Below are positions 33,091 to 39,253 of a DNA stretch of 64,000 nucleotides, one piece after another. Numbering within the stretch: the first letter of the stretch is position 1; each line of letters opens with the position of its first letter. Source of the DNA: Leptolyngbya sp. FACHB-261 (lineage in GTDB: Bacteria > Cyanobacteriota > Cyanobacteriia > FACHB-261); NCBI RefSeq assembly GCF_014696065.1, contig NZ_JACJPL010000027.1:682001-746000 (forward strand), read 5' to 3'. The notes beneath the pieces are model-generated. The model saw nothing but the letters and a program-made list of their open reading frames with translations, did not search any database and had not been told where the DNA came from. Position numbers and translations under genes: made by a program.

Positions 33091-34044
33091 ATGAAACTGG
33101 CTCGTGGCTTCCTAGTCCCGCTGCTGGCTCTGGTCACTGCGGTCACCGTCATCGCCTGTAGCAGTGGTGGCAGTACCGGTGGGGCCAGTCCTGAAGCAGG
33201 CTCTAGCTCGGGAGCTGCGGCTTCCGGCCCTGTTCGCGTCGCCTCAAAAGACTTCACCGAGCAATTCATTCTGGGCGAAATGTATGCCCTGGTTCTAGAG
33301 AACAGCGGCCTACAAGTAGAGCGCAAGCTCAATTTAGGGGGCACCCCTGTCGCTCAAAAAGCCCTAGAAAGTGAGCAGATCGATCTCTATCCGGAGTACA
33401 CCGGCACGGGCTTGCTGACTATCCTTAAACTGCCGGTTGAGAGTGACCCTAAGCAGGTTTTTGATACGGTTGCCAAGAACTACCAAGAAAAATTCAACCT
33501 GGTCTGGCTCGACCCAGCGCCCATGAACAACACTCAAGCGCTGGCCATGACTCAGGAGGGCTCTCAGAAGTACGGCATTAGGACCATCTCCGACATGGCA
33601 GCCAAAGCGAGCGAGCTAACCATGATTGGACCGCCAGAGTTCGAGGCTCGCGAAGATGGCCTACCTGGTTTGCAAAAAGCTTACGGTGACTTTAAGCTCA
33701 AGGCCTATAAAGGCATCGATCCAGGCCTGCGTTACCAGGGTCTGGTGGATGGTCAGGCAGATGTCGCTGTGGCCTTCGGGACCGACGGAGAGATCAGCGC
33801 CTTCAATCTAGTGACGCTCGAAGACGACAAAAAGCTCTTTCCGCCCTATCAAGTTGCACCGGTCGTGCGTCAGGCGGCTCTGGAGGCAAATCCCGGCATT
33901 CGTGACGCTCTCAACGCTTTGGCGCCTAAACTTACCGATGACACGATGCGCCGTCTCAACTACGAGGTGAGTGGCAAGCAGCGCGAGCCAGCCGAGGTGG
34001 CCAAAGAATTTCTGACCCAAGAGGGCCTGCTCAAAACCTCGTGA
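33091..34044 (+). CDS. Osmoprotectant/quaternary amine ABC importer, substrate-binding lipoprotein
   Basis: This 317-residue protein has a lipoprotein signal (hydrophobic core then TVIACSS, lipid-modified Cys near residue 21) and a Ser/Gly linker. The binding domain reads SKDFTEQFILGEMYALVLE and IDLYPEYTGTGLL, the hallmark motifs of OpuBC/OsmF-type (QAT family) binding proteins for glycine betaine, choline, carnitine or similar solutes. The ATG at 33091 sits well inside a longer open frame and is chosen because the signal peptide begins there. The matching ATPase and permeases lie at 35918, 36880 and 38606. Ligand identity needs testing; aromatic-cage residues were not mapped. Confidence 0.85.
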   Translation: MKLARGFLVPLLALVTAVTVIACSSGGSTGGASPEAGSSSGAAASGPVRVASKDFTEQFILGEMYALVLENSGLQVERKLNLGGTPVAQKALESEQIDLYPEYTGTGLLTILKLPVESDPKQVFDTVAKNYQEKFNLVWLDPAPMNNTQALAMTQEGSQKYGIRTISDMAAKASELTMIGPPEFEAREDGLPGLQKAYGDFKLKAYKGIDPGLRYQGLVDGQADVAVAFGTDGEISAFNLVTLEDDKKLFPPYQVAPVVRQAALEANPGIRDALNALAPKLTDDTMRRLNYEVSGKQREPAEVAKEFLTQEGLLKTS

Positions 34045-34048
34045 TCTA

Positions 34049-34861
34049 GTGCCGAAGCAACTCACGCTAACCTCCTTTCTGGCTCCCAATATGCTTTGGA
34101 TCTACGAAGCTGTGGGAGCCTATTTATCACGAGCTTTGGGGGTTGAAATCCATACCCGCCAGAGCGCCTATGACCCCCTTGAAGACCCAGCCGTTTTAGA
34201 AGATCGGCTGGAACTTGCCTTTCTGTGTGGCTTGCCGCTGGTGCGACGCAATTGGGTCCAACCCAGCCAACTGGTTCCCTTAGTAGCACCGGTCATGCAA
34301 GCACCCCGCTACGCAGGTCAGCCCGCTTACTATGCGGACCTGATTGTTCACCGCGATAACCCTGCAACCGTTCTGGCTGAGCTGGCAGGTCAACGGCTGT
34401 GCTACAACGATTTGGGTTCTAACAGCGGTTACAACTTGCTGCGCTATCGCCTGTTGCAAGCAGCGCACACTCAAAGCTTCTTCTCACAAGTTCTGGCTTC
34501 AGGCTCCCATCAATGCTCGATTCAGTGGATCGCTCAGGGCCAAGCTGATTGTGCAGCTATCGATAGCACGGTGCTCGAACAAGCTGGGCGCGACGCCCCT
34601 GAGCTAGTCAGCCAGCTCCGCGTGCTTGAATCCTTAGGTCCCTGCCCGATGCCGCCTGTAGTCGCTGCTCAGCATCTAGGTGCCCCCCTACTCGAACAAA
34701 TCCGCTCAGCACTACTGGTTGCAAACCAGGATCTTCAGTTGCAGCAGGTGCTTCAGCAAGGTGGCATCCAAACCTATGTCGCCGTACAACCGGAAGACTA
34801 TACCCCTATCGGTTTGATGCACCAAGCTGCAATCGAGGCTGGTTACGAGACTATTCGTTAA
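34049..34861 (+). CDS. PhnD-like substrate-binding protein without signal peptide
   Basis: This 270-residue protein has the fold pattern of phosphate/phosphite/phosphonate-binding proteins (PhnD-like, type 2 periplasmic binding): an N-terminal SFLAPNMLWIYEAVGAYLSR, DPLEDPAVLEDRLELAFLCG, and later ELAGQRLCYNDLGSNSGYNL and IQWIAQGQADCAAID, the second-lobe motif. It starts at GTG only 4 bp after the binding lipoprotein gene, so the two are co-transcribed. There is no signal peptide or lipobox, so it may act in the cytoplasm, unlike a transporter partner. It could be a cytosolic sensor or a processed solute binder; that is inference. Confidence 0.75.
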   Translation: MPKQLTLTSFLAPNMLWIYEAVGAYLSRALGVEIHTRQSAYDPLEDPAVLEDRLELAFLCGLPLVRRNWVQPSQLVPLVAPVMQAPRYAGQPAYYADLIVHRDNPATVLAELAGQRLCYNDLGSNSGYNLLRYRLLQAAHTQSFFSQVLASGSHQCSIQWIAQGQADCAAIDSTVLEQAGRDAPELVSQLRVLESLGPCPMPPVVAAQHLGAPLLEQIRSALLVANQDLQLQQVLQQGGIQTYVAVQPEDYTPIGLMHQAAIEAGYETIR

Positions 34862-35083
34862 ACAATATCTCCTAATAGAGACGGCAACTCGACCTGAAAC
34901 GCCTCAGAGCAGTCGAGCTCAGACACACAATAATGACCATTCAGGTGTGACAGAGCGAGTGGCTTGCATTCCTCTCTGTGGGCATGTAGAGTGACACGCA
35001 TGGATAATCTCGGTATTCCTACCGGCTAACCGTAGATTCGAGTATCGCGAACCCTCACACCCTTAGCAGCAAGAGGCCTGTTT

Positions 35084-35827
35084 ATGACCAACCGTTGGCG
35101 TAGCAGTTGGAGTAACAAAAATCAGCGGCCAGGCCGGCCAAGCCCAGTCGGCAGACCAAGTCAGCTTGAGAGTTCCAACTTTGCTGCGGCGGAGTGGCAA
35201 GCAGTTAGCACAGCGCTTCAACGTCTTATTGACGCTGAAGTCTTGTCTCCTAGCGGACATGGCAACCTGAGCACCCGGCTGGGCGATAACCCATCCAGTC
35301 TGCTACTCAAAGATTTGGCCAGTGCTGATCTGGCAGCATTAACGCTGACTGGCCAGGTTGAGCAGGGCTATCTCTCAGCCGAAACCCAACAGATCGTGCC
35401 GATGCACACGGTTGTATATGAGCTACGTCCTGAGGTGGGAGCCGTGCTGCATACGCATTCCCCCTATGTCACTGTCTTTGCCTTGGCGCAGAAACCCTTG
35501 CCCTGCTACTACGAATCCCTACTGCATTACGGTCAGGTTCAAGATATTCCAGTTGCAGCCTGGGGTCCACGCGGTTCAGCGGCTTCGGTCGAAGCAATCC
35601 GGGTAGCCATCCGACAGCACCCCAATACCCAGGCAGTATTGCTCGCCAATCATGGTGTTTTGGTTTTTGGCCCAGATCCGCTCAGTGCAGCAAACCTACT
35701 GATCGCAATTGAAGAGGCAGCTGCCGCAACCCTAAGGGCAACAGCATTGGGAGGAGCGTTAGCCTTCCCAGAAGGGGCTTTTACTCAGATCCAGGCGAGT
35801 ACGGAGCTAGTCGCCATCAGCCAGTAA
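35084..35827 (+). CDS. Class II aldolase/adducin family protein
   Basis: This 247-residue protein has the class II aldolase/adducin motifs: GHGNLSTRLG (substrate loop), PMHTVVYELRPEVGAVLHTH with the HTH zinc pair, and LLANHGVLVFG with the third His. In fuculose-phosphate aldolase a catalytic Glu lies 4 residues before the PxH His; here that place is Ile (IVPMH). So it is zinc-binding but may not be a normal aldolase. A basic, Arg/Ser/Pro-rich N-terminal extension of about 30 residues precedes the domain. It sits inside the importer cluster, 91 bp ahead of the ATPase gene, and could process the imported compound. Confidence 0.8.
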   Translation: MTNRWRSSWSNKNQRPGRPSPVGRPSQLESSNFAAAEWQAVSTALQRLIDAEVLSPSGHGNLSTRLGDNPSSLLLKDLASADLAALTLTGQVEQGYLSAETQQIVPMHTVVYELRPEVGAVLHTHSPYVTVFALAQKPLPCYYESLLHYGQVQDIPVAAWGPRGSAASVEAIRVAIRQHPNTQAVLLANHGVLVFGPDPLSAANLLIAIEEAAAATLRATALGGALAFPEGAFTQIQASTELVAISQ

Positions 35828-35917
35828 ATTCACCTGGTAGCCTGCTGCTCAAATTGCGTCAGGTCTAAGCTTTACACTATCTATCTAAGCCTGCCATCCA
35901 AGACCAAGGAATTAGCC

Positions 35918-36883
35918 GTGAGCGACATCCGTTTTGATCAGGTATCCCTGCGATTCCCAGGTGCGCCTCGCCCAGCAGTCGATCAGTGCAGTCTCGAAGT
36001 CGAGGCTGGCAGGTTCGTGGTGATTTTGGGGCCGTCAGGCTGCGGCAAAACCACTTTGCTCAAGATGGTGAATCGTCTATACGAGCCCACCTCCGGCAAA
36101 ATCACCATCGACGGCACTGACATCCGGCAACTCAAGGTGACGGCTCTCCGGCGGCAGATCGGTTACGTGATTCAGCAATCTGGTCTGTTTCCGCACATGA
36201 CCGTGGCGCAGAACGTTGCGGTTGTCCCTAAGCTATTGGGCTGGGAGCGCTCACGCGTGCAACCGCGCATTGATGAATTGCTCGAATTGGTGGACTTACC
36301 GCCGCAGGAATATCGGAATCGTTATCCAGCTCAGCTCTCGGGCGGCCAGCAGCAACGGGTTGGCTTAGCTCGGGCTTTAGCTGGAGACCCAAGTGTGCTT
36401 TTGATGGACGAACCGTTTGGTGCCATCGATGCCATTACCCGAACCACCCTGCAAGACGAGATTTTGCGGCTACAGCGCCAGCTTCAGAAAACGATTTTGT
36501 TTGTCTCCCACGACGTTGAAGAGGCTTTGCGGCTGGCGGATCGGCTCCTGATCCTGCAACGCGGCCAGATTGTGCAGTATGATACGCCCTTTAATATTTT
36601 GACGCGGCCAGCCAATGCCTTTGTACGGGAACTGGTAGGAGCTGACGACATGGTGCGCCAGCTGAGTCTGCTGCGGGTTGAAACTGCTATGAAAAGTATT
36701 CCACAAGGTTACACACCCAATGGAGAACCCACGATTGCGCAGCATGAGAATTTGCGCCAAGCTCTGTCCCTACTGTTGCAAACGGGCGCACCAGCGCTGA
36801 CCGTATTAGATAACCGAGGGGCAGTGGGTTTGCTCACTCTGGAGCATATTCGCGACTCTGCCAGCCTAGGAGCGAACGTGTGA
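35918..36883 (+). CDS. Osmoprotectant-type ABC importer ATP-binding protein
   Basis: This 321-residue ATPase has Walker A GPSGCGKTT (38-46), the signature LSGGQQQRV (140-148), Walker B VLLMDEP (160-166) and the switch His198 in VSHDV. It fits the ProV/OpuCA (QAT) class. After the nucleotide domain about 75 residues form one CBS-like module (QHENLRQALSLLLQ, then ALTVLDNRGAVGLLTLEHI); OpuCA proteins usually have two, which sense ionic strength, so this is a shortened version. The start is GTG. Its stop overlaps the permease start by 4 bp (GTGA), so the two are coupled. Confidence 0.9.
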   Translation: MSDIRFDQVSLRFPGAPRPAVDQCSLEVEAGRFVVILGPSGCGKTTLLKMVNRLYEPTSGKITIDGTDIRQLKVTALRRQIGYVIQQSGLFPHMTVAQNVAVVPKLLGWERSRVQPRIDELLELVDLPPQEYRNRYPAQLSGGQQQRVGLARALAGDPSVLLMDEPFGAIDAITRTTLQDEILRLQRQLQKTILFVSHDVEEALRLADRLLILQRGQIVQYDTPFNILTRPANAFVRELVGADDMVRQLSLLRVETAMKSIPQGYTPNGEPTIAQHENLRQALSLLLQTGAPALTVLDNRGAVGLLTLEHIRDSASLGANV

Positions 36884-37563
36884 GCTACATCTTCAAAAAT
36901 CCTGGCATTGTCGCCGGCTTGCTGCTTCAGCATTTACAAATGGTTAGCTTGGCGCTTCTGGTTGCAGTGTTGATTGCCCTGCCCTTGTCCCTGTTGATCA
37001 CGCGTTATCGCTGGTTGGGTGTACCGGTGATGGGGGTGCTAGGTACCCTCTACACGGTGCCCAGTTTGGCGCTAATTATTCTACTGGTGCCTTTTTTTGG
37101 CCTAAACGCCAGTTCAGTGATCGTGGCCATGGTTTTGTACACGCAGGTGATCTTGGTACGCAACTTTGTAGTGGGATTGCAGTCGATTCCGCCAGCAGTT
37201 TTAGAAGCAGCCCGGGGCATGGGTATGGATTGGTGGCAGCGTTGGTGCCAAGTGCAAATCCCGTTAGCGCTGCCAATTTTTCTAGCTGGTTTACGCCTAG
37301 CAGCGATTGTTGCCATTGCCATTGCCACCATTGGCGCCAAGTTTGGGGCAGGTGGTTTAGGGGTCTTGCTATTTGACGGCATTGCCCAGGTCGGGCGTTA
37401 CGACAAAATTTGGGCAGGCTCACTCACGGTCGCAGCCTTGGCTCTGGTGATTAACGGGGTGCTGCTGACCCTAGAGCGAATCTCAAGCCCGGCTACCCGG
37501 ATCCGCCGTTCAACCCCTCGGCAGCCGAATTTGTCTGAGCCCTCGCTCAATTTGGAGCCCTAG
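36880..37563 (+). CDS. Osmoprotectant-type ABC importer permease (first)
   Basis: This 227-residue inner-membrane permease has about five or six spans and the ABC importer EAA-type loop (VLEAARGMGMDWWQRWCQVQ, then IPLALPIFLAG) that couples to the ATPase. It is of the OpuCB/OpuCD (ProW-like) kind, which work as homodimers or heterodimers. It overlaps the ATPase gene by 4 bp and is the last gene of the plus-strand set. A second related permease lies at 38606 on the other strand, so the complex may contain both. The C-terminal tail is polar and Ser/Pro-rich. Confidence 0.88.
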   Translation: MSYIFKNPGIVAGLLLQHLQMVSLALLVAVLIALPLSLLITRYRWLGVPVMGVLGTLYTVPSLALIILLVPFFGLNASSVIVAMVLYTQVILVRNFVVGLQSIPPAVLEAARGMGMDWWQRWCQVQIPLALPIFLAGLRLAAIVAIAIATIGAKFGAGGLGVLLFDGIAQVGRYDKIWAGSLTVAALALVINGVLLTLERISSPATRIRRSTPRQPNLSEPSLNLEP

Positions 37564-37641
37564 GAATCTAGAGAGCATCCCTAAATTTCTTTAAATTTCC
37601 TCCAGATCTCCTACGCAAACTAAGCCAACTGGGTTGGTGAT

Positions 37642-38586
37642 TTAACAGGCGAAATCTTGCAGAAATGGTACAGCTGCGGCACTAACTGCTGCTGGACAGC
37701 CTGCCGCTGCGCTGTGACCACAGTTGGCCAAAATTTCCAGCCGAGCGTTGGGCAGTTGCGCACGGAGCTGCTCACCGTGGGCGACAGGAAACCAACGATC
37801 CTGTTCGCTCCACAGAATCAGCGTTGGGCAGTGGACGCTAGCCAGTTGCGCTTGAATCGGTTGCAGCAGACTGGGCTGACCCTGATGAAGGGCGCGAATT
37901 TCGCGGGCGAGCTGCTGGAGATTTTCAGCAAATTTAGTGATGGCGTTGGGAAATTCCACGTAAGGGTAGGCCAGCCAGTACACCTCATCCTCACTGACCT
38001 CACTGGGGTCTGCGACGACTTCCTGCCGCCCTAGCCACACAATACTGCGCACCAGGGGTGCCAGCCAGTAGGCCAGCCGAGCCTGATCCACTGCCCGTAC
38101 CCAAGTTAAGGGCAAATCAGCTAGTAAACGCATTCCCAGGCTGGGCAGTTCCACTGGGAAAATCGGCACGTTGATCAGCACCAAGCGAGCCACTAAGTCT
38201 GGTTGAGTTTGAGCCACAGCCAGACTGACTAATGCCCCCAAAGACTCAGCCATAATCGCTGCTGGTTCTGGACACAAAGCGCGAATCGCTTGGGCCAAAT
38301 CGCCAATTTGATGACCCGGTGGGTCGGGGTCGGGGGGCTTGTCGGAAAAGCCGTAACCCCGAGCATCCAGGCAAATCACCCGAAATTGTTGCGCGAGGGG
38401 ATCAATCAGGTGCCGCCAACTGTAACTCCAACTGCCAACTCCATGCACGAGCACTAGTGGCCGTCCCTGACCCTTTTCACCGAAGGCTAGTTTGAGAGTC
38501 TTACCATCAGCGGTTTGGATGCTTACTTTTTGCAGCCCCTGAGGGAACGTCGTCTGCCACCAATTTTGCATAGCTTCAGCCTGCAC
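37642..38586 (-). CDS. Alpha/beta hydrolase
   Basis: This 314-residue protein has the alpha/beta hydrolase order: LVLVHGVGSWSYSWRHLI with the HG oxyanion motif, VICLDARGYGFSDKPP, the nucleophile elbow AESLGAL (Ser in sxSxG), then the acid in LWSEQDRWFP and the His in NCGHSAAAG. A lid region lies between, rich in Trp and Leu. It has no signal peptide, so it is cytosolic. It starts 19 bp after the stop of the second permease on the same strand, so the two form a transcription unit; it may hydrolyse the imported compound. Epoxide hydrolase, haloalkane dehalogenase or esterase activity cannot be told apart here. Confidence 0.85.
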   Translation of the reverse strand: MQAEAMQNWWQTTFPQGLQKVSIQTADGKTLKLAFGEKGQGRPLVLVHGVGSWSYSWRHLIDPLAQQFRVICLDARGYGFSDKPPDPDPPGHQIGDLAQAIRALCPEPAAIMAESLGALVSLAVAQTQPDLVARLVLINVPIFPVELPSLGMRLLADLPLTWVRAVDQARLAYWLAPLVRSIVWLGRQEVVADPSEVSEDEVYWLAYPYVEFPNAITKFAENLQQLAREIRALHQGQPSLLQPIQAQLASVHCPTLILWSEQDRWFPVAHGEQLRAQLPNARLEILANCGHSAAAGCPAAVSAAAVPFLQDFAC

Positions 38587-38605
38587 AGCTTTGGCCTGGA
38601 CAGTT

Positions 38606-39253
38606 TTAGGCTCTGCTGGTCGGTGGCTGCACTGCCCGTTGCAGGCTGCTCAGACTCAGCTCGGCGATCAGCGCTAGAATCGCCACTGGGATCGCGCCAA
38701 CTAATAACACTGCATTGTCATACAGGGCAAAACCCAGGGTAATGAAGCTGCCCAAACCACCGCCACCGATGAAGGCAGCGAGAGTTGCGCTGGCAATTAC
38801 CTCAATTGTCGCGGTTTTGATGCCAGCAACAATCACGGGCAGGGCTAAGGGAATCTCGATTTGACGCAGGACTTGCCCAGAGGTCATCCCCATACCGAAG
38901 GCGGCTTCCCGAATGGCGGGATCAATGCCTCGAAAGCCAACATCAGTGCTGATTAGAATTGGCGGCATCACCAGCAGGGTCAGAGCGATTGCAGCTGATT
39001 CAAAACTCAAACCAAAGTAGGGAATCGCCAGAAACAGAATTGCCAGACTAGGGATCACCCGCAGGGAATTAAATGTGTTCATTAGGACAGTAGAGGCCGC
39101 CCGTGAGCGGGCACTCAACAGGCCCAGAGGTAATCCCACCACCAAGCCAATTGCCAAAGGAATTGCCACCAACATGAGGTGCTGGCCTAGCGCCGTAATG
39201 AGTTGGTCTGAATTGTCAGCTGCGTAGGTATAGGCTTGGCTCAAAACGTTCAT
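38606..39253 (-). CDS. Osmoprotectant-type ABC importer permease (second)
   Basis: This 215-residue permease has the same fold as the one at 36880: five or six spans and an EAA-like loop (AIREAAFGMGMTSGQVLRQI, then EIPLALPVIVAG), plus TATIEVIASATLAAFIGGGG after it. The GGGGLGS motif is typical of OpuCB/OpuCD. It is on the minus strand, heading a two-gene unit with the hydrolase. Together with the other permease, ATPase and lipoprotein it would complete a QAT importer. The split over two strands suggests the cluster has been rearranged, which is inference. Confidence 0.88.
   Translation of the reverse strand: MNVLSQAYTYAADNSDQLITALGQHLMLVAIPLAIGLVVGLPLGLLSARSRAASTVLMNTFNSLRVIPSLAILFLAIPYFGLSFESAAIALTLLVMPPILISTDVGFRGIDPAIREAAFGMGMTSGQVLRQIEIPLALPVIVAGIKTATIEVIASATLAAFIGGGGLGSFITLGFALYDNAVLLVGAIPVAILALIAELSLSSLQRAVQPPTSRA

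Follow-up and report, generated by a model that had tools for sequence, protein, structure and literature searches.

In pseudomonads, the importer HutXWV, which is of the quaternary-amine transporter (QAT) type, is encoded in a cluster of histidine-utilization (hut) genes beside hutH1, a gene of the histidine ammonia-lyase (HAL) family. Pseudomonas hutH1 is reported to be dispensable for growth on histidine (PMC8871633). Another HAL-family enzyme, ergothionase, is reported to have no 4-methylidene-imidazole-5-one (MIO) group and to release trimethylamine (PMC13405746). Here we analyzed a window of 64,000 nucleotides from Leptolyngbya sp. FACHB-261 (genome G000; an isolate cyanobacterium, 6.95 Mb in 36 contigs), in which a QAT importer is encoded together with a PhnD-like protein, a class II aldolase/adducin-family protein and an alpha/beta hydrolase between positions 33,091 and 39,253. 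As a gene arrangement, the pseudomonad hut cluster, which brings a QAT-like importer and a HAL-family gene side by side, recurs in part in this genome, but the importer core and the lyases lie at separate loci and the aldolase and PhnD-like protein are additional. A rhizobial plasmid operon (L151, L152 and L153) has in common with G000 a receptor, a MIO-less lyase, an ornithine-cyclodeaminase-family gene (OCD; 66-68% identical), a cytosolic PhnD-like protein, two permeases and an ATPase. It is, however, a single operon without an aldolase, whereas the genes of G000 are divided between two loci, and the PhnD-like proteins of the two fall in separate clades. Cyanobacterial surveys covered 145 genomes, G000 included, and a larger sample of 386 for the aldolase.

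Receptor paralogues beside the HAL-family genes

G000 encodes three receptors of the window subfamily (E<=1e-40), namely the window receptor and two substrate-binding proteins on contig C31, SBP63 (C31:502703) and SBP64 (C31:812517). Two HAL-family genes were found in the genome (E<=1e-60), and both directly adjoin an extra receptor, a different one in each case. HAL63, which follows SBP63 after 183 bp, is a true HutH (708 bits against a cut-off of 539). SBP64 lies in the order hutF-hutI-hutG-hutU-lyase-SBP64-aldolase, where the lyase is HutH64, the aldolase begins 69 bp after SBP64 and an OCD gene stands past hutF. By a rough estimate that treats gene order as random and allots 1,050 bp to each gene, both extra receptors would flank both HAL-family genes by chance with a probability of ~2e-7; as SBP63 and SBP64 are sisters within the cyanobacterial clade of the receptor tree (support 100/96), the two pairings are not fully independent events. 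HutF, HutI, HutG and HutU of C31 all scored above their NCBIfam cut-offs. HutU64 reached 975.6 for hutU (cut-off 375) but 720.7 for thiourocanate hydratase (cut-off 930), so that urocanate is the likely intermediate, and the thiourocanate hydratase expected as partner in the ergothionase pathway was not found at the HutH64 locus.

Neither C31 locus (20 kb each) contained QAT permeases or a QAT ATPase, and a single 28% ATPase match in L063 is part of another ABC system. Among the 21 of 45 candidates that were scored, the only QAT-like permeases of G000 (E<=1e-25) were the window pair. From these two observations we infer that the three receptors share one permease/ATPase core.

The aldolase beside SBP64 (C31:813600-814259) is 66% identical to that of the window over the searched stretch, and H123, H125, H190 and E100 are retained in both copies. 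The family stands beside two of the three receptors. It was absent from the other genomes of the 145 (E<=1e-25), the sample of 386 gave only 34-36% matches in four other genomes of one genus, and scans of genome contigs with the aldolase found nothing. No NCBIfam class II aldolase equivalog cut-off was reached (best score 95.6 bits against 300). Relatives on actinobacterial plasmids (48-51% identical; three of five records viewed) were set aside, having different neighbours and no adjacent QAT importer. Its place beside two of three receptors and its rarity in the phylum make the aldolase the best remaining clue to a further step.

Judged from gene arrangement and family assignments, the chances are about evenly balanced that the importer core of the window is a shared one and serves zwitterions of the histidine class (histidine and/or its N-methylated betaine, hercynine), taken up for catabolism. 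The window core, the sole QAT-type permease/ATPase core found in G000, would import these compounds, the orphan receptors SBP63 and SBP64, each beside a HAL-family lyase, would probably dock on it, and the hut enzymes of C31 would break down what is imported. The aldolase may process a related histidine derivative, and the hydrolase and PhnD-like protein are probably either accessories of the system or incidental neighbours.

HAL-family lyases without the MIO precursor

HutH64 scored nearly equally against ergothionase (PDB 6s7j, 289.1 bits) and HAL (1gkj, 287.2 bits), with identities of 34% and 37%, respectively. Like ergothionase, it lacks the Gly of the Ala-Ser-Gly MIO precursor (GASD versus GASGD), shares the QDPLSFRC motif, and carries Leu in place of Tyr280 and Ser in place of Asn195 (HAL numbering). 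The missing precursor and the Leu for Tyr280 identify it as an ergothionase-like, MIO-less lyase. It differs from ergothionase in its urocanase-type partner and in an Arg at His83, where ergothionase and HAL both have His. A conversion of hercynine to urocanate by HutH64 would be chemically coherent; no report of a hercynine lyase was found in the literature searched.

Among the loci compared, the MIO precursor is absent from the lyases of 15 (L064, L151-L156, L160, L163-L165 and L169-L172; a single plasmid carries both the L169 and the L155 lyase) and retained in those of four (L063, L157, L158 and L161). QAT parts occurred at the same locus in 10 of the 15 MIO-less cases and one of the four MIO-type cases, in a set of loci picked partly by QAT matches. 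The lyase tree suggests that MIO was lost more than once, because the lyases of Klebsiella, Agrobacterium, R. lusitanum-B and Priestia, which are short of three residues, cluster with the HALs of MIO type. The MIO-less lyases of Priestia, Azospirillum, Polaromonas, Alisedimentitalea and Paraburkholderia had no QAT genes within view, and a strict rule linking MIO loss to QAT importers is weakened by them. As a separate observation, Ala-Ser-Gly is wholly deleted in the HAL-family lyases at L170:4914-6446, L171:5405-6952, L169:6020-7543 and L172:3857-5395. Lyases with this whole deletion adjoin QAT importers in Klebsiella, Agrobacterium and Rhizobium, the Klebsiella copy lying within a hut cluster.

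On plasmids, 22 of the best 25 of 374 records of receptor relatives lie directly behind HutH64 relatives (21 by coordinates and one by locus reading, with the remaining three unchecked); most come from close Rhizobium relatives. Annotated examples of the operon hutC-lyase-receptor-OCD-PhnD-permease-permease-ATPase come from R. johnstonii pRL12, Martelella and Rhizobium sp. NXC14, and tblastn recovered it from the lyase onward in R. lusitanum. OCD recurs at 60-80% identity in 84 plasmid records and was not found in the other 144 cyanobacterial genomes (E<=1e-50). The PhnD-like proteins of L151 and L152, the two that were translated and judged by eye, start without a signal peptide. The 15 plasmid loci L151-L165 are a biased set, selected via substrate-binding protein, lyase, OCD or PhnD matches; a PhnD-like gene is present at 12 of them, a HAL-family lyase at 13 and a QAT importer at six. 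CoA-transferase, dehydrogenase and hydratase genes are neighbours in two modules, and the imported amino acid may thus differ between hosts. In Sinorhizobium B11 and Rhizobium CC-CFT758, two genes for LLM flavin-dependent oxidoreductases lie between the QAT importer and OCD-lyase (L156:5594-7989 and L164:5710-7988).

Candidate solutes and the receptor pocket

Receptors at least 63% identical to that of the window occur in 34 other genomes, which places the subfamily in 35 of 145 with G000. We read 35 neighbourhoods from these 34 genomes and excluded a 36th region, L134, which encodes a distant fused protein, from the counts. An earlier note on this DNA had named conservation of the gene cluster as a check on its claim of uptake and processing of one solute, and the outcome speaks against that claim as it was framed: in all 35 neighbourhoods the importer stands without the PhnD, aldolase and hydrolase genes, and none contains a hut or HAL gene. 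With the importer parts free of the three extras in 34 other genomes, the gene cluster of the window is not conserved as a pathway.

The window receptor shares the OpuAC family with the OpuBC/ProX and EgtU receptors, and with them Lys, Arg and Thr at what we take to be the carboxylate positions. At the ProX pocket positions it reads K, F, Y, T, M, Q, R, F and Y. The four tyrosines that form the cage of glycine-betaine-specific ProX (Y63, Y111, Y190 and Y214) correspond to Y, Q, F and Y, with Gln in place of Tyr111 and Phe in place of Tyr190; these cage and pocket numbers are presumed, apart from the residues named in the EgtU study cited below. Gln or Asn replaces one cage Tyr in all 35 cyanobacterial relatives (Gln in 34, Asn in L142) and in all three G000 receptors, Asn being the residue in SBP64, and in a comparison of 36 rows the distant L134 has Phe at the Gln position. 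As this pocket is common to nearly all cyanobacterial receptors, it is no proof that the G000 receptor differs from its relatives.

Beyond the absence of extras elsewhere in the phylum, several observations weigh against a shared core for histidine and/or hercynine. Linkage to hut genes is present for the paralogue SBP64 and absent for the window operon, and the permeases that single out the window core come from the 21 scored among 45 candidates. The same pocket occurs in cyanobacteria in which no lyase was found, so that the ordinary solute of such a receptor there need not be histidine-like. A different pocket is seen in the rhizobial receptors that neighbour MIO-less lyases, where Tyr takes the Gln position and Ala, Tyr or Phe the Phe position. 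The hut pathway offers no obvious step for the aldolase. Finally, the window PhnD-like protein falls among the stand-alone proteins of cyanobacteria (100/99) and the OCD-linked rhizobial proteins form a separate clade (100/99), so that its placement beside the receptor is distinct from that in rhizobia.

The earlier note had favoured uptake and processing of one solute over simple osmoprotection, and this holds in part. Receptor paralogues flank the only two HAL-family lyases, an aldolase lies in the hut cluster, and the rhizobial PhnD-like gene belongs to a QAT/lyase operon; on the other side, the importer occurs without the extras in 34 genomes, the hydrolase is unlinked, PhnD is of the stand-alone clade and the catabolic enzymes are at another locus. 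These last points, except the location of the enzymes, together with membership of the importer in an osmoprotectant family, would also suit a plain importer of glycine betaine, choline or carnitine, with the PhnD, aldolase and hydrolase genes inserted by chance. We nevertheless consider such an importer unlikely, as receptor paralogues stand beside both HAL-family genes and the hut cluster, the aldolase stands beside two receptors and the cage is incomplete, and uptake for catabolism is the better reading than plain osmoprotection. An EgtU-type importer of ergothioneine is very improbable. The PDB matches of the receptor include EgtUC chains (E 1e-52), and one study reports ergothioneine synthesis for cyanobacteria and names G244, F293 and Y337 as EgtU receptor markers (PMC9732360), but these residues, mapped via ProX numbering, are F, Y and M in the window receptor. 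Moreover, receptor and permease are separate genes here and a fusion in EgtU, and the hut partners are of the urocanate type.

A betaine-specific version of uptake for catabolism is possible but doubtful. Hercynine would be imported, HutH64 would eliminate trimethylamine to give urocanate, and HutU, HutI, HutF and HutG would carry urocanate to glutamate. The ergothionase-like residues of HutH64, the trimethylamine release by ergothionase cited above, the urocanase-type scores of HutU, the repeated loss of MIO and the proportions of QAT parts at MIO-less and MIO-type loci all point in this direction, as does the presence in G000 of a MIO-type HAL for histidine and of EgtD (387 bits, cut-off 290.9), the enzyme that converts histidine to hercynine. 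Against it stand the Arg at His83, an overall similarity of HutH64 no closer to ergothionase than to HAL, and the cage Tyr lost in the receptor, with Asn in SBP64. Extended beyond G000, this version would make MIO-less HAL-family lyases beside quaternary-amine importers amino-acid-betaine trimethylamine-lyases, with the window importer and sister receptors taking up hercynine for HutH64 and the hut enzymes; we put this forward tentatively, at the same low level of confidence.

If uptake of histidine-class zwitterions is borne out, it would assign a class of substrates to the receptor subfamily that occurs in 35 of the 145 cyanobacterial genomes sampled, and the betaine version would add a probable route of hercynine breakdown. 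It would also supply a rule by which a missing MIO Gly together with a QAT importer marks trimethylamine-releasing betaine lyases now annotated as histidine ammonia-lyase. The same idea would account for the dispensability of hutH1, beside hutXWV, on histidine in Pseudomonas, a puzzle that would become directly testable.

The window genes and their neighbours in cyanobacteria

The seven open reading frames of the window bear out the earlier note's description of a full QAT importer split over two strands. On the plus strand lie the OpuAC/ProX-type substrate-binding lipoprotein that serves as receptor (33091..34044; PF04069, 219.5 bits), with a lipobox, VIAC, spotted by eye by what we take to be the usual rule; the PhnD-like protein of substrate-binding fold (34049..34861; PF12974, 132 bits); the class II aldolase/adducin-family protein (35084..35827; PF00596, 104.6 bits); the QAT-type ATPase of the ProV family (35918..36883), which clears the TIGR01186 cut-off by a narrow margin (327.4 versus 326.6 bits); and QAT permease 1 (36880..37563; PF00528). 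The alpha/beta hydrolase (37642..38586; PF00561) and QAT permease 2 (38606..39253; PF00528), which is convergent with permease 1, are on the minus strand. The plus-strand gaps are 4 bp from receptor to PhnD-like gene, 222 bp from there to the aldolase and 90 bp from the aldolase to the ATPase, which overlaps permease 1 by 4 bp; on the minus strand, permease 2 is followed by the hydrolase after 19 bp. The genes look like two convergent operons. With an OpuAC receptor, a ProV-type ATPase and two binding-protein-dependent (BPD) permeases, the importer is an OpuA/ProU-like QAT system, an ordinary family in an unusual setting. Reading frames and Pfam matches likewise agree with the three extras between the importer parts; this interleaving holds for G000 and not for the other genomes read, where the extras are not beside the importer.

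Open-reading-frame calls made the ATPase an immediate neighbour of the receptor in at least 30 of the 35 receptor neighbourhoods, L133 and L147 being ambiguous owing to the calling. Permease 2 recurs at 68-80% identity in 33 other genomes; the 33 neighbourhoods read had no hydrolase beside it, and eight of them show the convergence with permease 1 that is seen in the window. Twenty other genomes have the hydrolase (E<=1e-45, 48-59% identity), in each case away from the importer.

The PhnD-like protein is not a phosphonate receptor PhnD by family score (TIGR03431, 83.8 bits against the equivalog cut-off of 261.1), and it has no signal peptide, because its frame extends upstream by only ~11 codons (open frame 281 aa) and leaves no space for one. 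It occurs in 24 other cyanobacterial genomes (E<=1e-40), and none of the 24 neighbourhoods read had the importer beside it, L052 having one partial 34% permease match. Inheritance of the PhnD linkage as one module was rejected because of the separate, supported clades of the window and rhizobial proteins, and is disfavoured too by AioX, which matches the window protein at 84 bits, above the Martelella protein at 59 bits.

Other recurrent neighbours of the importer in cyanobacteria were unrelated to the question, and those of orphan receptors in G065 and G100 (UreD, DUF411, a GFO/IDH oxidoreductase and gyrase A) gave no consistent hint. The G065 receptor (L130:4722-6581), its second, falls near the SBP63/SBP64 branch and lies tail to tail with the urease accessory gene UreD. 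A ~510-aa protein without a Pfam family is encoded directly upstream of the receptor at 10 of the 35 loci (e.g. L117:3938-5473 and L116:6738-8267). At 15 of the 24 loci with a stand-alone PhnD-like gene, a ~430-aa protein without a Pfam match is encoded within ~3 kb (e.g. L039:8340-9692), mostly convergent with that gene. The N-terminus of the window aldolase (from 35084 to 35190) consists of ~35 low-complexity residues rich in Asn, Gln, Pro and Ser, and the paralogue on C31 bears a similar yet different extension.

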